Positions 21,095-33,908 of a stretch of 64,000 bases of DNA are shown piece by piece. The stretch's first letter is position 1. Every line of letters begins with the position of its first letter. This stretch comes from an uncultured Pseudomonadales bacterium (GTDB lineage Bacteria > Pseudomonadota > Gammaproteobacteria > Pseudomonadales > Azotimanducaceae). A model generated the notes under the pieces. That model ran no database searches. It was not told where the DNA came from and saw only the letters and a program-made list of their open reading frames with translations. The position numbers and the translations under genes are program-made. Location: positions 2,232,001 through 2,296,000 of the forward strand of contig OY282379.1 of NCBI GenBank assembly GCA_958295875.1, written 5' to 3'.

Positions 21095-21649
21095 TCAAGA
21101 GCGGCTTTCAGCCTGCAAGCGGTCGATGCCCGCCAAGAAGACTTGGAAACTGCGCGACCTGTTGCTGCGGGAGACCAGCCTACCCATTGCGCGGGCGGCG
21201 GTTCGCTTTTGGAAGCTCGGTATGAGTTTCGCAAGTGCCTTGGCGGGTTGCACGACGCTGTCGGGGTCCCGAAATCGCGGCTTCTTGAGGCTCGTCCTGA
21301 TGCGCCGCTCAGCATCAGGAAATGCTTCGGCCAACGCTTCGACGTCGCCCACATACCATGCCTCGAGCTCGCGGCACACGATTCTCACGAGCGAGTCAGG
21401 GCGCCTGCCCTGCTCACATAGCGCTCTTAGGCTGGCCTTGATGGCATGACAATCTCCGCTGTCTTGATCGCGCATCGCCACGAAGCTGTCCGGCATCTTC
21501 CAACTCCGCAGTTTTCGCGTCAAGCTCTTCTCTAGGTCTCGCTTGCCTTGGTGTGGCACGCAAAGAAAGTCGAGTTCCGGGGCCAGCCGGGGCAGCAGTT
21601 CACTGAGGAAGTCTGCCATGGAGACCTCCTCGACCAAGAACACGATCAT
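21095..21649 (-). CDS. DUF4276 family protein, TOPRIM-like, probable defence effector
   Basis: 184 aa starting 3 bases after the ATPase stop. The N-terminus has an acidic strand end FLVEE (E7, E8), then VPHQGKRDLEKSL, and a second strand VAMRDQDSGDC with D61-x-D63. E plus DxD in this order matches the TOPRIM signature used by OLD-type nucleases. VRIVCRELEAWYVGD (residues about 88-102) is typical of DUF4276. Paired with an AAA ATPase it fits a two-gene toxin/nuclease module such as OLD- or PARIS-like systems. GC content is lower than in flanking metabolic genes, suggesting transfer. Catalytic activity is inference. Confidence 0.75.
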   Translation of the reverse strand: MIVFLVEEVSMADFLSELLPRLAPELDFLCVPHQGKRDLEKSLTRKLRSWKMPDSFVAMRDQDSGDCHAIKASLRALCEQGRRPDSLVRIVCRELEAWYVGDVEALAEAFPDAERRIRTSLKKPRFRDPDSVVQPAKALAKLIPSFQKRTAARAMGRLVSRSNRSRSFQVFLAGIDRLQAESRS

Positions 21650-21652
21650 CGT

Positions 21653-22825
21653 TTATGGTGCCTCGCCTCCCAAAAGGCGCTGTCTCCACAGTGCGCCAGG
21701 CAGGTCTCCGCCGTCGTACAGATCGCACAGCAGTTCCGAATCCTTGGCCTGGCGAACACGCGAAAAGCCATCGACCTTCTCGAACCAATAGATTTCGTTC
21801 AACTCGGCGCCGTTAAGGAAGTCCGGGGAGTGCGTTGACACAAACGCCTGTCCGCCCCGTCGCGCATAGTCGCGAAACTCTTCAGTCAGGAGGCTCAGCA
21901 GGTCGTGATAGAGCTGGTTCTCTGGTTCTTCCACGGCGATCAAAGGGTGCGGGTTGGGATCGTGGAGGAGCAGCAGGTACGCGAACATCTTGATCGTGCC
22001 ATCCGAAACATGTCGGGCTACAAATGGGTCCTTGAAGGATCCATCTTGAAAGCGGAGCACGAGTCTCCCATCTTCCGTTGGCTTCGCGTCTACCGCCGCA
22101 ACCCCTGGAACGCGGTCCCGCATGGCACGCAGCACACGCTGAAAGTGTTCTGGGTGATGCTCATATAGGTACTGCGCCACCTGCGCGACGTTTTCGCCCG
22201 AAGTGGAGAGATGCTCCGCGTATCCGACTTCCGAGCTGCTACGAGCATCCGCGATGTGCAGGTTGGAGATGTGCCAGTTGTCGATCAAGGAACGGAACTC
22301 CGAGACAACGCGAAACTCTTGGAATTGGCCGAGTCCCTTGATGGCGAGCGTCGCAGGATCGTCGAGCTTGTGTTCCCTTCGCTCCTCCCTCGCGTCCGAT
22401 GTGCCGTACATGGATTCGTTCGTGATGGCGTTGCCCGAGCCCTCGCGGAAGTCCACGAAATGCCAAGCACGGCCACCGCCAAAACGTCGGTAGCGCAACA
22501 CCTCATGGCGCACCACGGGACGTCCCCCTGTTTCTGCCACCTCAAGCAAGTAGGTGGCCAATCGCCCTGACGATTCCCGGAACTTCACGGTGATTCCAAT
22601 GGGCCCTTCGCTGCCCCGGCTGACCAGCTCCTTGAATCCGCCACGCTTGGCCACGGCCGACGCCACGTTGCCCGCTAGAGCATCCTTCAGAAAAGAGAAG
22701 ACATCGAACAACGTGGACTTGCCGGTGCCGTTGGCGCCGATGACTACTGCGAGGCGTGGCAGGTTGGTGAGCTTGACGTCTTGGAGCGCACGGTAGTTCT
22801 TGATCCAGATTTGCTCGATGGGCAT
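21653..22825 (-). CDS. AAA family ATPase (ABC/RecF-like, AAA_21 type), probable defence sensor
   Basis: 390 aa. The N-terminus IKNYRALQDVKL and Walker A GANGTGKST (residues 30-38) are typical of RecF/SMC-like AAA_21 ATPases. Walker B is LIAVEEPENQ near residues 296-305, and a switch His in STHSPDFLNG follows. No DNA-repair context and a directly adjacent DUF4276 gene suggest an anti-phage ATPase that controls its partner. It starts just downstream (on the minus strand) of the cyclase gene end. Lower GC and more A/T-ending codons than neighbours. Confidence 0.85.
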   Translation of the reverse strand: MPIEQIWIKNYRALQDVKLTNLPRLAVVIGANGTGKSTLFDVFSFLKDALAGNVASAVAKRGGFKELVSRGSEGPIGITVKFRESSGRLATYLLEVAETGGRPVVRHEVLRYRRFGGGRAWHFVDFREGSGNAITNESMYGTSDAREERREHKLDDPATLAIKGLGQFQEFRVVSEFRSLIDNWHISNLHIADARSSSEVGYAEHLSTSGENVAQVAQYLYEHHPEHFQRVLRAMRDRVPGVAAVDAKPTEDGRLVLRFQDGSFKDPFVARHVSDGTIKMFAYLLLLHDPNPHPLIAVEEPENQLYHDLLSLLTEEFRDYARRGGQAFVSTHSPDFLNGAELNEIYWFEKVDGFSRVRQAKDSELLCDLYDGGDLPGALWRQRLLGGEAP

Positions 22826-25516: not shown

Positions 25517-25933
25517 TCACTGTGGCCAAGGATTGACGACTTCCACGCCGCTTGGCGCAAAGTCCTTGACGTTGCGTGTCATCACCGCCATTTCGTGATG
25601 CAGCGCCGTTGCCGCGATCAATCCGTCCGGGGCCGCGATGTGTTGCCCCCGTCGTTTGGCGCGGGCCGTGAGTTGCCCCCAAAGTCGGGCGATGGGCGCG
25701 TCCACTTGCAAGATGCGCTGACGGAAATCGTTTTGCAGCCGGTCCAGCCACGCGAAGAGATCCCGTTGGCGCTGCCCCGGGGCCAAGCCGTGTGCGCCCT
25801 TGTATATCTCGCCGATTGTGATGACGCTGATGAAGGCGCGATCGCCTAAGTCGACGACAGCCGATTTGACGCTGTGCTCGCCGTTTGGTTTGTGTGTTTC
25901 CGAGACGACGCAGGTGTCCAGCAGCGCCCTCAC
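25517..25933 (-). CDS. PIN-domain toxin (VapC/FitB-like RNase)
   Basis: 138 aa. PIN acidic residues are in place: D6 (LLDTCVVSE), E42 (ISVITIGEIYKG), D103 (AAPDGLIAATA) and D124 (TRNVKDF). The length and sequence are those of VapC/FitB RNases, which cleave tRNA or other RNA when not held by an antitoxin. No separate antitoxin gene precedes it. Instead its ATG overlaps by 4 bases the end of the large restriction-modification gene, whose last 35-40 residues look like an antitoxin tail. Confidence 0.85.
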   Translation of the reverse strand: MRALLDTCVVSETHKPNGEHSVKSAVVDLGDRAFISVITIGEIYKGAHGLAPGQRQRDLFAWLDRLQNDFRQRILQVDAPIARLWGQLTARAKRRGQHIAAPDGLIAATALHHEMAVMTRNVKDFAPSGVEVVNPWPQ

Positions 25934-28900
25934 AGTTCGATGTCGCGCATTGGGGAGCGGTCGCGCTCAAGGTCTAGCCCCTCGAACGAAGGGCCGCTCA
26001 TCAAATGCGCGATGAAGTCATCGTCTTCGATTCCTTCGGTATAGGCCGGACGATTGGACACAGTCGGCTCGCGCACGATCTTTTCCCGCCAATACGCGGT
26101 CGCCTCAGGGTCACGGCCTAGACAGGCCGCGGCCGCAGCGTCGAGCTCCGCACGAACCGGGCACTCATCCATCTGCGGCCAGGGCAGCAGCTCTGCCTTG
26201 CCGAGCCGTTGGAAGGCATCTTGCAGCGGCGTCAGGTCGCATTTCGCTGGGTCTGGCACGGGCAAGGATCGTAGCTGTTCCAACGAGTAGTCCGAGTAAT
26301 CCAGCGCTTTCTGTCGGCGGTTCAAGAACGACGCCACTGCCGGAGTGGAGTTCAGGTAGGCGCACCAAGCCTCAAGCGTCTCCGCAGGGGCGGAGATGTG
26401 TGGCAACGGCGTCACGGGAATGAAAGGCTGACCCAAAGCGGGGCGAGGGGCATGAATGGCGGACACTCGGACTCGGGAGGCTCTGATCTTGGCCGCAACC
26501 AGCATCCTGCTCGCCTTCGGCCACAACACGTCCGTTGCGTACTGCCGTTTGGTGGGCTTGGGTGCCGTGACGAAATCTGCAAAGGAACTCATCGTCCTGC
26601 GGCTGTTCGGCTTGTGCGTCCACACGACTGGGAACTTCGCGTCCGGTATGGGGTGGTCTAACGGGTTCACGAACGCATCCCGCAATCGTTGCCCGCCGGG
26701 TTCGACTAATGCCAAGTCTCCCAGCGGCGTGGTGGCGTCATGCTCATCGATGTAGCGTGCGAGGGCCGCCATGGTGCCGTCTAGGTATTGGCAGGGTGTC
26801 CAATCGCCGGCCGCCATGCGTTCGGCCGGCCAAACGTAGGCGCGATGCAGGCGGTGGTTCTCCCCGGCATGCACAGCCGTCACCCAATCGGCGGCCTCTT
26901 GGGCAGTTTGCGGCATGCGTGTGAGCGCGATGAAGGTGGTTGCTCGCTGCGGCGCGTTGGCGCCGCGGCGGCGGCAGATGAGGAGCGATTCGTGAATCGC
27001 CGTGTTGACTGAGAAGTTCGGGCGTTTCGGATCGTGGCTGGTGACGATGAAATCGATGTGGAAGCGCTCCGCCAAGAACCTCCGCTCGTCCACTCCCGAT
27101 GTGCTGGTGCAGGCCGTAGTGGGCAGAATCGTGCCGAGCACGCCTGCGTCCTTGTGCAGCAACGCATCCGCCAATGGGGTGAAGAGGGTCCGCACGCTGT
27201 TTGAGTCGATGAGGTATGAAGCGGCAGGGTCTGCCCCATGTATCTGGCGTTTGATTTCGAGTTTGCGTTGTTGAATCCCCTTCTTCGCGGCAGCGCTGAA
27301 CCGGCGCCCGTAGTGTTCATTGTTGGTGAATGGCGGGTTCATCAGGATCACGTCCATGCCGCGTATGTCTGGCACGTTGGCAACGGCGGATTCCCGCGTC
27401 GAAACCGCTGCCTGCTTAACGTGCCCCAAGAGGCTCAACTGCTCGCCGCCGCCGACGGCTGTCGGCAGCAGTTCAAGGCTGCCCAAAGCCACTGAGCCAT
27501 CGGGCTGCGGGCCGTGGCGCATGGTGTGGATGTGCATGGCTTCGTAGTCCACAGTGGGGGCGCCGAGCGTCAGGTTTGAGGCGGCGAGCTGCGTCGCTTG
27601 GTAGTTGATGTCCAAGCCTCGGATGGAATGCTCGACCAGCGCCTTGTGGGCTTGTCGCACTTCGGCCGGCGTCATCGGCTTGGCCGCCGCCATGTGGTCC
27701 TTGATGGTCTTGAGCGCGGCCATCAGCAGCGTGCCGGTGCCGCAGGCCGGGTCCAGAATGCGCAGCCCCGTCGCGTGCTGCCAATCCGACCAGTCCGCGA
27801 AGTTGGGGCCAAGCGCCAGCCCCGCAAGCATCAGCGCGGAGATGTTGTTGGTGTAGAAGGCGCCGTCACTGACGGCGCTGCCGAGGATCTTGTGGTAGAG
27901 CGGGCCAGCGTGGTCGTAGCCGAGTTCAGTGACGGCATCGGATAGGTTCACGGCGCACTCCGCCAGTATCCGCGCCGGCGCCTTGAGGCCGTCGAACGAT
28001 GGCGAGTTCTCGATGAGGGACAGTGCCGGGCGGAACACGGGCGCGTAGTCCTTGCCGAGGATTGCGTCCCAGGCTTCGGCGAGGCTCTCGGCTGGGGTGT
28101 GCGAGCGGCCGATCTCGATGAGGTCTGGCAGCCCTTCGAGCGCGGCGGATTCCTTCTGCAAACGCCGATGCAGCAAACAGGCGTTGCACAGCAAGAGCGC
28201 CGCGGTGGTGGACACTTCCCGATCTTTGACGCTGGTGAGGTCTAGGGCTTGGCGCAACGAGGCCATGAGTGCTGGGCTGTCTTCAATTCTCCTCGCCGCC
28301 AGCCCCACCGAGCGGACGATGTCGTCCGCCGTCACCTGGCCGGGGCGGCCTAGCCCAGAGGCAGCCACCACCTTGGCGAAGATGCCCGGCTCAACGGCTT
28401 GAAAGGCGAGGATGTCGCCAATGGCCGGGTACGTGGTGTCGTCGTCGCGCACTTCGCCGTCGCGGGCGCGGGCGGTAGGGGCGCGCTGGTTTCCGTTGGC
28501 TGTGCCGGTGTCGATCAGCACGTGTACAAACGTCGCTGGGGATTCCGCGAGCCGCTCATCATGCGATTGCAGCGCCCGCAGCACAGCGCCGATGTGTCGG
28601 TAATCGTCGCCTCGCTGTTGCAGCAATTCGGCGATGTCGCCCTCGCCTTCGGGCACGAACACTGGCACCACGATGTATCCGAAACGCTTGCCCTTGGCTT
28701 TGCGCATGACGCGGCCGACGGCTTGAACGATGTCGATTTGGCTCTGCTTCGGGTCTAGAAACGCCACGGCGTCTAGGGCCGGCACGTCCACGCCTTCAGA
28801 GAACACCTTCACGTTGCAGATCATCCGCGCTTGGCTCTTGCGGGGCGCGTCGTTCAGCCAGCGCCGCTCTTGGTTGCGCTGCAGCGCCGTGCTCTTGCCG

Positions 28901-30603
28901 TCCAAGTGGCGGGCTTCAAGGTCTGCGCGTTTGCCGCGGCCAGCCAGTGTGCGCGTGACGCGCTGTTTGAGGGCGAGGTTGCCGTTGATGGTGTCGCGGA
29001 ACCACTTGGAACGCTGAATCGTTGACGCGAAGGCGATGCTGCGGGGCAACGCGCTCGGCGTCTCGCCGCCTTCCACCGCGCCGTTCAAGGCCAGCATGGT
29101 TCCCAACAGACGGCAGAGATCTGTGTCCGACGCCCTCTTGGGCGCATTTTCGCCGGCAAGCGCGGCGCGGATGCCTGGCGTGAGCTGGCTTTCGCGGATG
29201 CCGAGCACGATCACGCGATAGTCCGAGAGCTCCCCGGCAGCGACGGCTTGCGAGAACTTGACGTGGTGGAGCAGCGGCCCGTACACATCCACATCCGACA
29301 TGTCCACCACGTTGTAGGCGAACCCCTTTCTTTCCGCGGCCCGCTCGGTGGCCCGCACCGACCTTTGCGTATACATGCGCTGCGTGGCAGTCATGTAGAG
29401 GCGCTTGCCAGCGTCGAGCTGCGCCGCATCGTGGAACGCTTGGAAATCCACCTCCTTGCCGGCGACGTCATCCCGAATGACGCCGGTGGTGCGATGGGCC
29501 TCGTCGGCAATGGCGAGATCAAAGCCCGGTGCGCCATGCCGCGCTTGGGCTTCACACACTTTGCCCAGGGAGTGGTAGGTGCAGAAGACGGCCTTCACGC
29601 CTCCGCTCGGGTTGCCCAGCCGCCGCGAGATGTCGGCCGGGTCTGACACCACGTCGCAGACCAGATCGTCCGCGCCGATCTCTTGGCGTTCGCCGCGCCC
29701 GCCGGCGGTGCTGTCTGAACACACCACCAGCGCGGACATGTCCCGCGTCCGGTGCGTCAGCCACTCGCGCCGCGCTTGGGACACTAGGGCGATGGTGGGC
29801 GCTGCGAACAGAATCCGCCCGTCGTCCGGCACGATGCGCTCGGAGAGCTTGAGCGCCGTGAAGGTTTTGCCGGTGCCGCAGGCCATCACCAGCTTGCCAC
29901 GATCGTTGCCTTGGGTGACGAGGCCGTCGTACACAGCGTCGATGGCTTGCTGCTGAAGCGGCTTCGGCTGCCGTTGCGCCGCGGGCCTTTGGAACTGGCG
30001 GATCTCGTGGTCCAGGAAATCCAGAAAGTCGATGCGGGCGACCCTCGGCACGCGGCCGGCGATGGCGCGCTCCGCGGCGGCATTCCATGCGCAGGTGGAA
30101 ACGATCCAACGCAGCCCGAAGGCTGGCCGCGAAGATTCGTTGAGGAAACTATCGATGTTTGGCTTGGCGATGATGGCTTCCGCCGCGTAGCACTTGCACT
30201 GGATGGCGATGACGGTGCCATCCATTTGCGTCGCCACGAGGTCGATGCCGTGGTCGCGGCCGTCGAGGCCAGTTAGCTGCTCGCGGTCTGGCCAGTCTCG
30301 CCATGGCCAGATTGCCGCCACGTCGAACTCGGGGTTGTCGCGCACGGTGGCCATGAAAAGGTGCTCGAACCAACGCCCCTTCTCGACTTCGCTGGAAGCG
30401 TCGCGGCGTATGCGTTCGAGCGCGTCGCCAACTCGTTCGCTGGGGCGCAGGTCTAGGTTGGTTTGGACAGTCACGCCCACGCATCCCGATTGTGGCGCCG
30501 AAGGCGGATTTGCGACGGGCGGGGAGTTGGACGAGGCCGTGCCCGGCCTCCCCGCGGCGCTGCTGGCCATCATAGCCGAACTCAAGCGGGTGAACCGGTT
30601 CAT
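25930..30603 (-). CDS. Single-chain restriction-modification enzyme, type ISP-like, with antitoxin-like tail
   Basis: 1557 aa from ATG 30603. Domains in order: Mrr-like nuclease (residues about 55-205; D121 in GIDLV and QCK at 135-137); superfamily 2 helicase (Walker A ACGTGKT at 241-247, DEAH at 367-370, GVDVPALDAVAF and QAVGRVMRKA later); coupler; N6-adenine methyltransferase (LDPACGTGTLL near 950, MNPPF near 1086); then a target-recognition region ending PTVSNRP. This order matches type ISP enzymes such as LlaBIII, and the length is similar. After PTVSNRP comes a tail, YTEGIEDDDFIAHLMSG to SPMRDIEL, that resembles the toxin-binding end of VapB/Phd antitoxins. The first four codons lie inside the IS end; GTG or ATG codons a little downstream (M11, M12, V42, V44) may be the original start. 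Confidence 0.87.
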   Translation of the reverse strand: MNRFTRLSSAMMASSAAGRPGTASSNSPPVANPPSAPQSGCVGVTVQTNLDLRPSERVGDALERIRRDASSEVEKGRWFEHLFMATVRDNPEFDVAAIWPWRDWPDREQLTGLDGRDHGIDLVATQMDGTVIAIQCKCYAAEAIIAKPNIDSFLNESSRPAFGLRWIVSTCAWNAAAERAIAGRVPRVARIDFLDFLDHEIRQFQRPAAQRQPKPLQQQAIDAVYDGLVTQGNDRGKLVMACGTGKTFTALKLSERIVPDDGRILFAAPTIALVSQARREWLTHRTRDMSALVVCSDSTAGGRGERQEIGADDLVCDVVSDPADISRRLGNPSGGVKAVFCTYHSLGKVCEAQARHGAPGFDLAIADEAHRTTGVIRDDVAGKEVDFQAFHDAAQLDAGKRLYMTATQRMYTQRSVRATERAAERKGFAYNVVDMSDVDVYGPLLHHVKFSQAVAAGELSDYRVIVLGIRESQLTPGIRAALAGENAPKRASDTDLCRLLGTMLALNGAVEGGETPSALPRSIAFASTIQRSKWFRDTINGNLALKQRVTRTLAGRGKRADLEARHLDGKSTALQRNQERRWLNDAPRKSQARMICNVKVFSEGVDVPALDAVAFLDPKQSQIDIVQAVGRVMRKAKGKRFGYIVVPVFVPEGEGDIAELLQQRGDDYRHIGAVLRALQSHDERLAESPATFVHVLIDTGTANGNQRAPTARARDGEVRDDDTTYPAIGDILAFQAVEPGIFAKVVAASGLGRPGQVTADDIVRSVGLAARRIEDSPALMASLRQALDLTSVKDREVSTTAALLLCNACLLHRRLQKESAALEGLPDLIEIGRSHTPAESLAEAWDAILGKDYAPVFRPALSLIENSPSFDGLKAPARILAECAVNLSDAVTELGYDHAGPLYHKILGSAVSDGAFYTNNISALMLAGLALGPNFADWSDWQHATGLRILDPACGTGTLLMAALKTIKDHMAAAKPMTPAEVRQAHKALVEHSIRGLDINYQATQLAASNLTLGAPTVDYEAMHIHTMRHGPQPDGSVALGSLELLPTAVGGGEQLSLLGHVKQAAVSTRESAVANVPDIRGMDVILMNPPFTNNEHYGRRFSAAAKKGIQQRKLEIKRQIHGADPAASYLIDSNSVRTLFTPLADALLHKDAGVLGTILPTTACTSTSGVDERRFLAERFHIDFIVTSHDPKRPNFSVNTAIHESLLICRRRGANAPQRATTFIALTRMPQTAQEAADWVTAVHAGENHRLHRAYVWPAERMAAGDWTPCQYLDGTMAALARYIDEHDATTPLGDLALVEPGGQRLRDAFVNPLDHPIPDAKFPVVWTHKPNSRRTMSSFADFVTAPKPTKRQYATDVLWPKASRMLVAAKIRASRVRVSAIHAPRPALGQPFIPVTPLPHISAPAETLEAWCAYLNSTPAVASFLNRRQKALDYSDYSLEQLRSLPVPDPAKCDLTPLQDAFQRLGKAELLPWPQMDECPVRAELDAAAAACLGRDPEATAYWREKIVREPTVSNRPAYTEGIEDDDFIAHLMSGPSFEGLDLERDRSPMRDIEL
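30586..30590. repeat. Putative target-site duplication, left copy (GCGGG)
   Basis: GCGGG directly left of the proposed IS end, matched by GCGGG at 31756-31760 directly right of it. Five bases is within the range reported for IS481-family insertions. Confidence 0.5.
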
Positions 30604-31755
30604 GACATCTGGCACTGAGGCTGGGCAGCCTCGTGGGCGACAAGGTACTCGTTGGGGGATCGGTAGTCGATTGCGGAGTGCGGTCGGATGTAGTTGTAGA
30701 AGAACTCGCGCTTGAGGAGCCTCTCGGAGACGGCCTCGACGGTGAGGTCGCAGTCGAGGAGGTTCCAGAACTCGATGCGGGCGGTGCGGTTGGCGCGCTC
30801 GACGCAGCCGTTCCACTGCGGCCGTCGCGGCGGCAGGACGCGCAGCGCGACGCCGAGGTTCCTGCAGGCGTCCTCGAAGCCGGCCATGAACTCGCTGCCG
30901 CCGTCGACCTGGACGGACTCCAGCGGCACGGGGAGGGCTTCGGCGACGACGGCGAGGAAGCGCGCTGCGGTGGCGGCGGTGGCGCGGGAGAAGGCGCGGG
31001 CGACCATGAACCGGCTGACGGGGCAGATGGCGCGGAACTCCTTGATGGAGCTGCCGTCGCGGGAGACGGTCATGTGGTCGATCTGGACGAGCTGGCCCGG
31101 GCGCTCGGCCTTGTCGCCGTATTTCCAGCGCCGCGCCCAGCCGTTGAACTTGCGGGGGCGCTTGGGCTTGGCCCGTCCTTCGCAGAGGCTGGCGGGGGGC
31201 ACGGTCCCGTCCGCGATGGCGCGCGAGAGGATGCGCCCGACGGTTGACGCGCTCAGCCGCAGGCCTTGGCGTTCGAGCATGCGCTGGATGGGCGCCTTGC
31301 CCATGAACGGGTGCTTGCGGCGCATGGCCATGACCGCCTTCACGTCGCCCGGCTTGCGCGCCGGGCGGCGGACGCGGCGCGGTCGGGTGGACTTCGGCGC
31401 GAGGCCGCGCTGGCCGCCGGCGGCCAGCGCGGCCTTCCACCGATACAGGGTGCGGCGGCTGACGCCGACCTCCCTCAAGGCGGCGCGCTCGGCGCAGCCG
31501 GCGGCGCGCAGCCCATCGAACCGGCGGATCGCCGACAGGCGCCCGCGGGCCTCGGCCGGCAGTTCGGCGTCGTCCACCCTGAAACTGCGGTACGATCTGA
31601 TCCGCATCGATTCGATTCGCATGGCTCGGGTCTCCACCAGTGACTTCGCATTCACTGAGGCTACCCGATCCGGCGCTGGCGGCGGGTTCCCGTCGCCAGC
31701 GCCACCTCACCCCGCCATCGGCTGGCGCAGTGCCATATCTATCTGAACCAGAACA
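30591..31755 (-). mobile_element. IS481-like insertion sequence (about 1165 bp)
   Basis: Contains one transposase gene and is bounded by imperfect terminal inverted repeats: left 30591-30617 (TGAACCGGTTCATG..., ending GGCACTG) and right 31728-31755 (inward TGTTCTGGTTCAGA..., ending GGCACTG). Shared blocks are TG, GGTTCA and GGCACTG. The ends are TG/CA and a 5-bp GCGGG duplication flanks them. It sits at the 5' side of the restriction-modification gene, and the transposase stop overlaps that gene's proposed ATG. The exact borders are my reading by eye; an alternative right end at 31786 (CTTCTGGACA) cannot be excluded. Confidence 0.65.
30600..31655 (-). CDS. IS481-like DDE transposase
   Basis: 351 aa. 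N-terminal helix-turn-helix (REVGVSRRTLYRWKAAL, residues about 62-78) and an rve/integrase core with the DDE residues in VQIDHMTVS, VQVDGGSEF and ERANRTARIEF, then FFYNYIRPHSAIDYRSPNEYL at the end, all typical of IS481/IS3-type transposases read as a single frame. Start could also be an internal ATG (MRIESM or MRIRSY). Looks intact. Its last bases (TGA at 30600-30602) overlap the ATG assigned to the restriction-modification gene. Confidence 0.85.
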   Translation of the reverse strand: MNAKSLVETRAMRIESMRIRSYRSFRVDDAELPAEARGRLSAIRRFDGLRAAGCAERAALREVGVSRRTLYRWKAALAAGGQRGLAPKSTRPRRVRRPARKPGDVKAVMAMRRKHPFMGKAPIQRMLERQGLRLSASTVGRILSRAIADGTVPPASLCEGRAKPKRPRKFNGWARRWKYGDKAERPGQLVQIDHMTVSRDGSSIKEFRAICPVSRFMVARAFSRATAATAARFLAVVAEALPVPLESVQVDGGSEFMAGFEDACRNLGVALRVLPPRRPQWNGCVERANRTARIEFWNLLDCDLTVEAVSERLLKREFFYNYIRPHSAIDYRSPNEYLVAHEAAQPQCQMS

Positions 31756-31766
31756 GCGGGTGAACG

Positions 31767-31831
31767 GGATCAGCACCTTCTGGACAGTGCCGCGCCCAAG
31801 GAACCCTTGGGCGCGGCGGTTCGGTAGCCTA
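31767..31831 (+). repeat. Dispersed repeat, copy A (65 bp) with perfect hairpin
   Basis: Begins GGATCAGCACCTTCTGGAC and ends GGTTCGGTAGCCTA. Copy B at 52336-52399 matches most positions, and copy C (48894-48919, opposite strand) matches 24 of 26 bases of the core. Inside copy A the arms gccgcgcccaagg and ccttgggcgcggc (13 bp each, AAC loop, 31788-31816) form a perfect hairpin with no T-run after it. The gap 31656-31993 otherwise holds only the IS right end and the leader of the next gene. Confidence 0.7.
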
Positions 31832-31993
31832 TGAGTTGAAAGACAACATGGGAGACCGAACAATCGCTCGATCCCAACGGCATGCCTATAGGACACTTCG
31901 GTAGTGACAGTCTTCTCCGCTCGACGTTTCCCCATCCTCTTTCGCAACTGCTGGAACACGACCGGCTTGGCTGACGCGATCAACGGCATCGAC

Positions 31994-32704
31994 ATGGATT
32001 CACTATGCAAGGAACTCGAAGAGTTGAAGGCGGCGGCGCCCAGCCGTCCCGACAGGGCCAAGCGCTACTTCGTCGGACACGAGAGACGACTGCCGCCGAA
32101 GGACTCCGGCAATCCCTCGGAGAAGCACCTGGCCATCGCCCTGCGGCGCCTGGAGATGCTGCACGCCCGCGCGGACGTCACCCAGGTTCGCCTTCTCGAC
32201 TACCAGTTTCCGTTGAAGGCGGCGCAATCGGACACGGGCCTAGGCGAGGTGGACCTGCTCGGCGTGACGGCTGACGGCCGCATCGCGATCGTCGAACTCA
32301 AGGTGAGGCGGAGAGACGGCGACCCGGGCGACACCCCGGTTCACGCCCTGATGGAGGGCCTGCGCTACGCCGCCGTGGTCCAGGCCAACATCGGCGCGAT
32401 CGCCGCCGAGGTCAGGCGCCTTTTCGCCATTGATGTGCCGGATCGGCCTCCTTTCGTGCAGATTCTGGCTCCGGAGGACTGGTGGCGCGGGTGGCACGAC
32501 ATGGTCCCTAGAACGCGCCGGAGGGCCGGACCTTGGGAGGTTCCGTTCCTCGACCTTGCAACCCGCGTGGAAGCCCGGCTCGGTATCGCAGTGGAATGCG
32601 CATCGCTCGGGGCTGCCGGCCTCGCCGATATCGCATGGGACGCCTGCGGGCCACTCCTTCTGCGCCCGCCCACCGTCTCCGGTGTCGCTCTTGACACGAG
32701 GTAA
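31994..32704 (+). CDS. PD-(D/E)XK nuclease-like protein, unknown family
   Basis: 236 aa from ATG 31994; an upstream start at 31904 would add 30 aa of unlikely sequence. The nuclease-like core is GLGEVDLLGVTADGRIAIVELKV: E85, D87 and E101-x-K103 fit a PD-(D/E)XK active site. A helical N-terminus precedes it (residues 1-60). The C-terminal half (WWRGWHDMVP and onward) I do not recognise. It is followed after 2 bases by a second gene with the same kind of motif. The pair lies between repeat copies A and D. Probable restriction or defence enzyme (inference). Confidence 0.7.
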   Translation: MDSLCKELEELKAAAPSRPDRAKRYFVGHERRLPPKDSGNPSEKHLAIALRRLEMLHARADVTQVRLLDYQFPLKAAQSDTGLGEVDLLGVTADGRIAIVELKVRRRDGDPGDTPVHALMEGLRYAAVVQANIGAIAAEVRRLFAIDVPDRPPFVQILAPEDWWRGWHDMVPRTRRRAGPWEVPFLDLATRVEARLGIAVECASLGAAGLADIAWDACGPLLLRPPTVSGVALDTR

Positions 32705-32706
32705 CG

Positions 32707-33672
32707 ATGCAACCCGTCGTCGACTACACCGGCTACGAAAGAGCCCTGCGCGGGCGTCTCTGGGAGTGGGCCGACCGTTACCATCGGGACGAACTCGATG
32801 GCGGCAGCCGGGACAGCCGCCCCCCAGTGCTCAATTCCGATGTGGCGAACAGCGCGGTGCTCGTGCCGTCCGACGCGGCTATGGCGCGCGACATCGTGGC
32901 CGCGCTTCCCAAGCGCGAGCGGCACCGGTGGTTCCGCAGCCTGAAGAGCTCCCAGGCGTTGGCCCAGAGCGTCTTCGGCGCGGTTGCCGCCTTTGGCCGG
33001 CTCGACCTGCTTGACGGCATCGCCGCGGAGTGCGGCCGGCCGGCATTTCTCGAAAGCGCGCGCGGCACATCCCTCGTCCTCGAGCACCGCGTCGGGACGC
33101 TGGGCGAACCGAGGGCGACCAGCGTGGACGTCCTCTTCCAAGGGTCTTCGCGGCGCGTCGCGATCGAATGCAAGTTCGCCGAGCGCGGGTACGGCACCTG
33201 TTCGCGGCCCAGGCTGAAGCCCGGCGACCCCACCTATCCCGAGCAGCACTGCGACGGCAACTACCAAGTGCAGCGGAACCGCAGTGAGCGCTGCGCCCTC
33301 GCGGAAATCGGGGTGCGGTACTGGGCCTACCTGCCGGATCTGTTCGAATGGGAGGCGGGCGGGGACCTGGTCCCCTGTCCGCTATCGCCGGTCTACCAGC
33401 TCGCCCGCAACGCGCTGGCGGCCACGGTGACCGGCGTCGGTTTCGACCCGACGTCGGGACATGTCCTTACCGTGTACGACGCGCGAAACCCCGAGTTTGC
33501 ACCCGGCGGCATGGCTTGGCGGCAGTACGACCCCGCGATCGCCGCGTGTCGAATACCGGGCCTCTTTCGCTGCGTGACCTGGCAGCGCGTCGCGGCCGCC
33601 CTGGCCGCAACACCCGAACTCGCGTACCTGACGGCGGGACTGGAAGGGAAGTACGGCATCGCGCCCCACTGA
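32707..33672 (+). CDS. Second PD-(D/E)XK-like protein, unknown family
   Basis: 321 aa, starting 2 bases after the previous stop. Core: RATSVDVLFQGSSRRVAIECKFAE with D141, E154 and K156, and a preceding Glu in EHRVGTLGEPR (E126), the arrangement of PD-(D/E)XK nucleases. After it come YQVQRNRSERCALAE and YQLARNALAA, helical stretches with conserved-looking polar residues. No known-family identification is possible by eye. Coupled to 31994-32704, so the two products probably act together. Confidence 0.72.
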   Translation: MQPVVDYTGYERALRGRLWEWADRYHRDELDGGSRDSRPPVLNSDVANSAVLVPSDAAMARDIVAALPKRERHRWFRSLKSSQALAQSVFGAVAAFGRLDLLDGIAAECGRPAFLESARGTSLVLEHRVGTLGEPRATSVDVLFQGSSRRVAIECKFAERGYGTCSRPRLKPGDPTYPEQHCDGNYQVQRNRSERCALAEIGVRYWAYLPDLFEWEAGGDLVPCPLSPVYQLARNALAATVTGVGFDPTSGHVLTVYDARNPEFAPGGMAWRQYDPAIAACRIPGLFRCVTWQRVAAALAATPELAYLTAGLEGKYGIAPH

Positions 33673-33722
33673 AGGGCCGGTGGCCGGGCGGCGACCAATC
33701 CGCGCGTGTGGGGGGCTCACGG

Positions 33723-33736
33723 ACCTTCTGAACAGT
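33723..33736 (+). repeat. Dispersed repeat, partial copy D
   Basis: ACCTTCTGAACAGT differs by one base from the matching part of copy A. The similarity does not extend far on either side. It marks the right side of the two-nuclease module. Confidence 0.45.
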
Positions 33737-33908
33737 CGGCGACCATAGCAGCCTGCGGTGAGGTGCCCAACTTCTCGGGCGCCGAATATAGCGGAACATC
33801 GGCGAACCGCCGCCGGCTCACTTCTCCCCTTCGCCTCAGTCCCGCCTCCTGTGGCGGCCGTCGGCGTCCCGGCGGCAGACGCACGGCTCCGGAGCGGATG
33901 GCGTAAGG

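Follow-up and report, generated by a model that had tools for sequence, protein, structure and literature searches.

What keeps a toxin in check when no antitoxin gene stands in front of it? This question is raised by two genes on the minus strand of a 64,000-nucleotide stretch of DNA (hereafter the window; positions 2,232,001 to 2,296,000 of contig OY282379.1, assembly GCA_958295875.1) from an uncultured Pseudomonadales bacterium of the family Azotimanducaceae, whose genome is a 3.75-Mb single contig. The first gene encodes a type ISP-like single-chain restriction-modification (R-M) enzyme (likely form 25930..30474, 1514 amino acids), and the second encodes a FitB-like PIN-domain RNase toxin of 138 amino acids (P0002, 25517..25933; PF01850, E 2.6e-11). 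We found that the R-M enzyme ends in a segment resembling the toxin-binding C-terminus of Phd/YefM antitoxins. Homology, linkage and independent recurrence support that the R-M enzyme itself is probably the antitoxin of the neighbouring PIN toxin, as the original prediction had proposed from the gene arrangement and the look of the tail.

The antitoxin-like tail and the overlapping PIN gene

The solved structure closest to the PIN toxin was FitB (E 2e-18), and the four acidic positions of the PIN domain (D6, E42, D103 and D124, read from the sequence) were present in the window and conserved in the sister genome L003 (OY282519.1). A single-sequence structure model of the PIN protein was discarded (pLDDT 45). 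The stop codon of the R-M gene and the start codon of the PIN gene share four bases (GTGA, 25930..25933, minus strand), as had been predicted, except that the PIN start is GTG in the window and not ATG; it is ATG in L003. An ATGA or GTGA overlap was likewise found in most stand-alone Phd-PIN modules, and at the window locus it points to translational coupling of R-M and PIN. The earlier claim that no antitoxin gene precedes the PIN gene also held: no small antitoxin open reading frame (ORF) was found there, and the N-terminal domain of Phd is absent. A type II toxin-antitoxin system is expected to include a small, separate antitoxin that has a DNA-binding domain, which this locus lacks; what appears by homology to be an antitoxin C-terminus lies immediately upstream of the toxin, in a gene that overlaps it.

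The enzyme had been predicted to extend about 37 residues past PTVSNRP, and 38 residues were counted after EPTVSNRP. The add-on tail comprises 39 codons (PAYTEGIEDDDFIAHLMSGPSFEGLDLERDRSPMRDIEL; 25933..26049, minus strand), of which the last 31 (25933-26025) show the homology to Phd C-termini. Ten homologs with 43-56% identity and readable C-termini (L004, L006-L011, L013, L014 and L017) end approximately 6-30 residues past EPT(I/V)xN, and only L003 (97%) and L005 (79%) continue beyond it, with …LMSGPSFEGLDLERDRSPMRDIEL and …LMSGPSLDGVEIRRDRSPMRDVTL, respectively. Because the relatives stop soon after this motif, the tail is a real add-on. The type ISP homologs in L010, L011, L013 and L017, which come from metagenome-derived genomes, have in-frame stops near their 3' ends that reflect decay or assembly errors.

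To the question of what the tail is, sequence comparisons gave a consistent answer. When the 39-residue tail was searched in 274 genomes of the same class, the best foreign matches were L038 (E 5.1e-5) and L039, followed by a weaker match in L041, and each of the three forms the C-terminus of a small Phd/YefM-type antitoxin whose gene immediately precedes a FitB-like PIN gene. About 30 Phd-PIN modules from Pseudomonadota share a tail consensus like FxxFMRxSPLxGxELDLERDRSPxREVxL, and in an alignment of 22 tails the window-tail residues P13, R22 and R28 were invariant. An independent profile, built from 30 stand-alone Phd tails with none from R-M proteins and run on 2,023 ORFs of the window and related loci, ranked six fusion proteins first, each match ending 0-2 residues from the C-terminus. 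The E-values were 1.4e-12 for L122, 1.7e-5 for both the window R-M and L003, 0.0099 for L005, and 0.038 and 0.04 for two BPTD_3080-family endonucleases described below. The match of the window R-M runs flush to its last residue, and the next match after the fusions (E 0.28) was not C-terminal. The E-values of another profile, A1, were not used for fused proteins, since some of these were included in A1 and the result would be circular. When the tail was shuffled 20,000 times, no shuffle equalled the real score (28.5 bits vs a shuffle maximum of 14.0). A tblastn search of plasmids with the tail, a short query, gave no match. The expected alignment with antitoxins upstream of FitB-like PIN genes was thus obtained, both with individual antitoxins and with the 30-tail profile. 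The proposal of a VapB/Phd antitoxin C-terminus stood as far as the Phd/YefM antitoxins of FitB-like PIN toxins are concerned, but the tail is not of the FitA type, which is ribbon-helix-helix. In a structure model of the R-M C-terminus (9 sequences), which was confident only in parts, a helical bundle precedes the tail (pLDDT mostly 74-88), and the tail is predicted to be disordered (pLDDT 33-41) except for a short helix, DDFIAHLM; this fits an antitoxin segment and proves nothing.

Comparison of the two genes with known modules further suggested where they came from. The nearest PIN relatives (51-53% identity) follow stand-alone Phd antitoxins in the genomes G617, G757, G759 and G750 of the same family; these antitoxins end, for example, in GFIEYLMNGPSLEDVDIRRDRTPMREVDL (…LMNGPSLEDVDIRRDRTPMREVDL) and overlap the PIN gene in the same way as at the window locus. 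In the PIN tree, the window PIN was placed in a clade with these relatives, L038 and L041 (support 100/98). Among 41 antitoxin-PIN pairs, the four tails nearest to the R-M tail were paired with the four PINs nearest to P0002, and the four antitoxin genes, all from the same bacterial family, are stand-alone Phd genes with a GTGA-type overlap. As the nearest tails and the nearest PINs belong to the same pairs, it is most likely that tail and PIN came together from a single Phd-PIN module whose Phd N-terminal domain has since been lost. Such modules (e.g. L088/L092, in a genome of the same family) share with the window locus this level of PIN identity, the tail motif, the GTGA/ATGA overlap and the gene order. 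Their antitoxin is a Phd protein of 80-90 amino acids with its N-terminal domain, whereas the window has the tail only, carried on a restriction enzyme.

Two other sources of an antitoxin were considered. The few other PIN and Phd-like genes of the window genome speak for control of the toxin by an antitoxin encoded elsewhere, but a profile of the 22 tails, applied to this genome, matched nothing except the R-M tail up to an E of 0.2, so that no other antitoxin of such kind was found to act in trans, and the tail-bearing gene is the one whose stop overlaps the PIN start. Control from elsewhere is therefore extremely improbable. A free short peptide, produced from an internal start near the 3' end of the R-M gene, is a very unlikely candidate for the real antitoxin. 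Internal start codons do occur at R-M residues 1510, 1515 and 1535, and antitoxins of this sort have been reported for other defence genes, to judge by the title of Zhong et al. 2023; however, none of the three codons is preceded by a clear ribosome-binding site, the GTG at 1510 is GTC in L005, and an isolated Phd-C segment neutralises its toxin only when fused to a folded, stabilising partner such as SUMO (PMC10440598). By analogy, the large and stable R-M enzyme would serve as such a partner for the tail.

Linkage, selection and recurrence

Is the association of tail and toxin more than a single event? The fusion was found in a second genome, L003, which keeps the tail, the overlap and the PIN gene. 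It provides another type ISP gene with the same tail before a PIN gene, which the original prediction had suggested looking for, and its presence in a separate genome rules out an assembly artefact. An intact PIN accompanies both type ISP R-M genes that bear the tail and are themselves intact (the window and L003), and no PIN was found at the 15 tail-less type ISP loci within the stretches examined, several of which reach only a little past the R-M gene. In L005, an insertion sequence (IS) splits the R-M gene (residues 848/845 lie 1.3 kb apart), the tail is kept, and no PIN is recognisable. No PIN was found by tblastn after the stop codon there, and the possible remnant VNVLLHPCHVR is suggestive only.

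The architecture was also found on a different restriction enzyme. Two genomes from a different genus of the window's family, G570 and G602, encode a restriction endonuclease of the BPTD_3080 family (NF046055, 1196 bits, matching residues 6-987 of 1028) that continues into …HDFKAMLAAAPLEG(I/V)DLERPPSPSREIDFF, so that it ends in the tail, and is followed by an overlapping FitB-like PIN gene. This PIN falls in a different clade, adjoining L115, and the L115 antitoxin has the most similar tail (…SAPLEGIDLERPRD…). The PINs linked to BPTD_3080 and to the window R-M lie in separate clades of the tree, by which the R-M-linked state must have arisen at least twice. The case for the BPTD_3080 tail comes from its position, the PIN linkage and the L115 match. 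In viral contigs, 12 tail-less BPTD_3080 homologs had no PIN within up to 4 kb, and the plasmid homologs, the best among the matches listed, end before the tail. A third platform is an AAA-ATPase_like/PDDEXK_9 protein in G763 (L122:4545-6194), which ends in …FIRFLLDSPLAGVDLDLKRDRSPARRVQL; it is followed, after an ATGA overlap, by what reads as a PIN gene with only a few codons left at either end (MSFLVDNTDLDLVNPWNE), a gutted toxin.

The same tail motif was observed on further small proteins that have no evident resemblance to Phd antitoxins (L097, L105, L107, L115, L134, L124 and L125), most of them before PIN genes. The toxin-binding tail appears, from these sequences, to be a portable module. 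Outside the window's family, a 398-genome sample of the phylum and a 321-genome sample of the class, partly overlapping the earlier samples, were searched. Setting aside the window's own match, each of the approximately 80 tail matches proved to be a small antitoxin, a short frame or a weak chance match, and none was a fusion on a long ORF. The long-ORF matches in G187, G315, G298 and G365 were rejected as fusions, since each is an ordinary small antitoxin whose open frame extends far upstream, and those in G745 and G596 were weak or chance tail matches.

Comparisons between the window and L003 showed no nonsynonymous and three synonymous changes in the tail (dN 0 at dS 0.13), and dN/dS was 0.16 for the R-M body and 0.36 for the PIN. 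By these estimates, the tail and the PIN are under purifying selection. These values bear on whether the arrangement is an inert relic, in which a deletion attached the last part of a phd gene to the R-M gene and left a tail without a role next to an inactive or harmless PIN. The fusions are rare, with none on long ORFs in the 398-genome and 321-genome samples against about 80 small antitoxins, and the PIN is lost in L005 and gutted in L122, all of which is in keeping with a relic. Such a relic is nevertheless unlikely, given the absence of nonsynonymous change in the tail, the dN/dS of the PIN, its intact acidic residues, the retention of tail, overlap and PIN in L003, and the recurrence of the architecture on a second restriction enzyme.

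Several points weigh against the R-M enzyme being the antitoxin. A tail in a type ISP protein without a PIN neighbour, an observation that the original prediction had taken to speak against a functional fusion, is seen in L005, although the R-M gene there is IS-broken and we judged the case not to be contrary. The two type ISP examples with an intact R-M gene are closely related (97% identical), the selection estimate for the tail is coarse, with three substitutions only, and the BPTD_3080 tail, judged by itself, scores weakly against the independent profile (E ~0.04). That the PIN is toxic is an assumption. The free Phd domain, which normally dimerises and autoregulates, is absent, so that stoichiometry and control would be unlike those of a normal module.

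The restriction enzyme and its surroundings

The open frame of the R-M gene extends over 25930-30603 on the minus strand (1557 amino acids) and runs further beyond the ATG at 30603, which the original prediction had given as the start. A start at GTG 30474 (VTVQTNLDLRPSER) is likelier: position 30603 falls on the border of a 3.3-kb insert absent from L003, and L005 has an ATG at the place matching 30474. The enzyme contains an Mrr-type nuclease domain (residues 95-201, 30001..30321; Mrr_cat_2 PF13156, Pfam E 3.7e-25), an SF2 helicase/translocase part (residues 212-635, 28699..29970; ResIII PF04851 and Helicase_C PF00271) and an N6-adenine methyltransferase part (residues 911-1189, 27037..27873; N6_Mtase PF02384, with DPACGTGT at 951 and NPPF at 1089), all on the minus strand, and the motifs GTGKT, DEAH, DPACGTGT and NPPF are all intact. 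The type ISP order of domains is thus present in a single polypeptide, with the nuclease first, then the SF2 ATPase, the N6-methyltransferase and the recognition region. A match to LlaBIII was found over residues 71-685 (i-E 2.6e-84, E 1.7e-85), and the second half of the R-M enzyme had no significant match to LlaBIII, for which reason type ISP-like is the safe name. The enzyme shares with LlaBIII and LlaGI a nuclease, an SF2 helicase, a methyltransferase and a C-terminal recognition part in a single chain, but its methyltransferase and recognition half is far diverged, and the tail and the PIN are extra.

None of the plasmid records searched for the R-M enzyme covers 80% of the query. In the viral contigs, no R-M relative was found, and the PIN gave one fragment and nothing else. 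A second type ISP-like R-M in the window genome (L002, G000:C1:1595298-1599740) is 34% identical to the first and has neither tail nor PIN; an ATPase-like reading frame comes after it. The insert relative to L003 is located at 30590-33908, immediately upstream of the R-M gene, and carries an IS481-like transposase (30600-31655, minus strand) and a REase-ARP family nuclease gene (32707-33672, plus strand) with a small ORF upstream. An AAA_21/AbiEii-like ATPase gene (21095-22825, minus strand), followed by a DUF4276 gene, resembles another defence pair near the R-M locus.

A proposed mechanism and its meaning

How might such an enzyme act as an antitoxin? A type ISP-like R-M gene would have gained a Phd/YefM toxin-binding tail together with the downstream FitB-like PIN gene, the N-terminal DNA-binding part of the antitoxin being lost. 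Through the GTGA coupling, the toxin would be translated upon completion of the enzyme and hence beside the finished tail, which may wrap the PIN RNase and place an arginine in its acidic active site. If the R-M enzyme is the antitoxin, its loss or breakage should free the RNase, and the enzyme would thereby become addictive. The original prediction went one step further and supposed that such a loss would end in abortive death. For this scheme, we infer translational coupling in practice, binding, neutralisation, toxicity and release.

Parts of the scheme have precedents. The C-terminal Arg64 of VapB occupies the active site of VapC, and a contact of this kind is also seen in FitAB (PMC3384007). 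The window locus resembles these systems in its PIN toxin and in an antitoxin C-terminus of the kind whose arginine enters the active site, and differs from them in its platform, which is ribbon-helix-helix in FitA and AbrB in Shigella VapB, neither being a nuclease. In PanA, a short Phd-C segment carried on a different folded domain contacts and acts on the toxin active site, and its truncation abolishes neutralisation (PMC10440598); there the platform is the Panacea domain, not an immune nuclease, and the toxin is Doc. An RNase silenced by a co-encoded restriction-modification enzyme is the logic of PrrC-EcoprrI (PMC12707154), and by analogy the window locus may share it. PrrC, however, is a HEPN/ABC anticodon nuclease, and EcoprrI is a three-subunit type IC enzyme with no borrowed type II antitoxin tail. 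The window locus is not of the PrrC type, an anticodon nuclease within a three-subunit type I R-M locus, as its toxin is a PIN and its R-M enzyme a single chain.

The reading of the R-M enzyme as antitoxin can be extended, not opposed, by supposing that the enzyme is guarded: its block, remodelling or degradation by phage, through an anti-restriction protein or a DNA-bound state, might free the PIN and cause abortive infection, as with PrrC-EcoprrI. We regard this as possible and put it forward tentatively. The EcoprrI complex keeps PrrC latent, and phage Stp sets it free (PMC12707154). Makarova et al. (2012) described toxin genes in immunity loci without typical antitoxins, proposed immunity proteins as their inhibitors and named PrrC-EcoprrI as the well-studied example (PMC3506569); the window case fits this proposal. 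All three tail-bearing platforms in the window's family, moreover, have nuclease-type domains. On the other hand, no trigger is visible in the sequence, and simple addiction accounts for the same data. That restriction enzymes have repeatedly borrowed antitoxin tails, which would turn an immune enzyme into the direct inhibitor of a suicide RNase and tie this RNase to the enzyme's condition, and that inhibition by phage or loss of restriction triggers abortive death by the RNase, is likewise a conjecture of limited probability.

In the open-access literature, subscription papers and preprints lying outside the search, we found no restriction enzyme with a type II antitoxin tail. At this locus, the link between toxin and immunity is written in the sequence, in that a restriction enzyme ends with 31 residues that form a recognisable antitoxin segment before its toxin, and such a tail arose on at least two unrelated restriction enzymes. 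If our reading is true, it would reveal a way for restriction genes to become addictive and show that a toxin-binding tail is transferable onto unrelated proteins.

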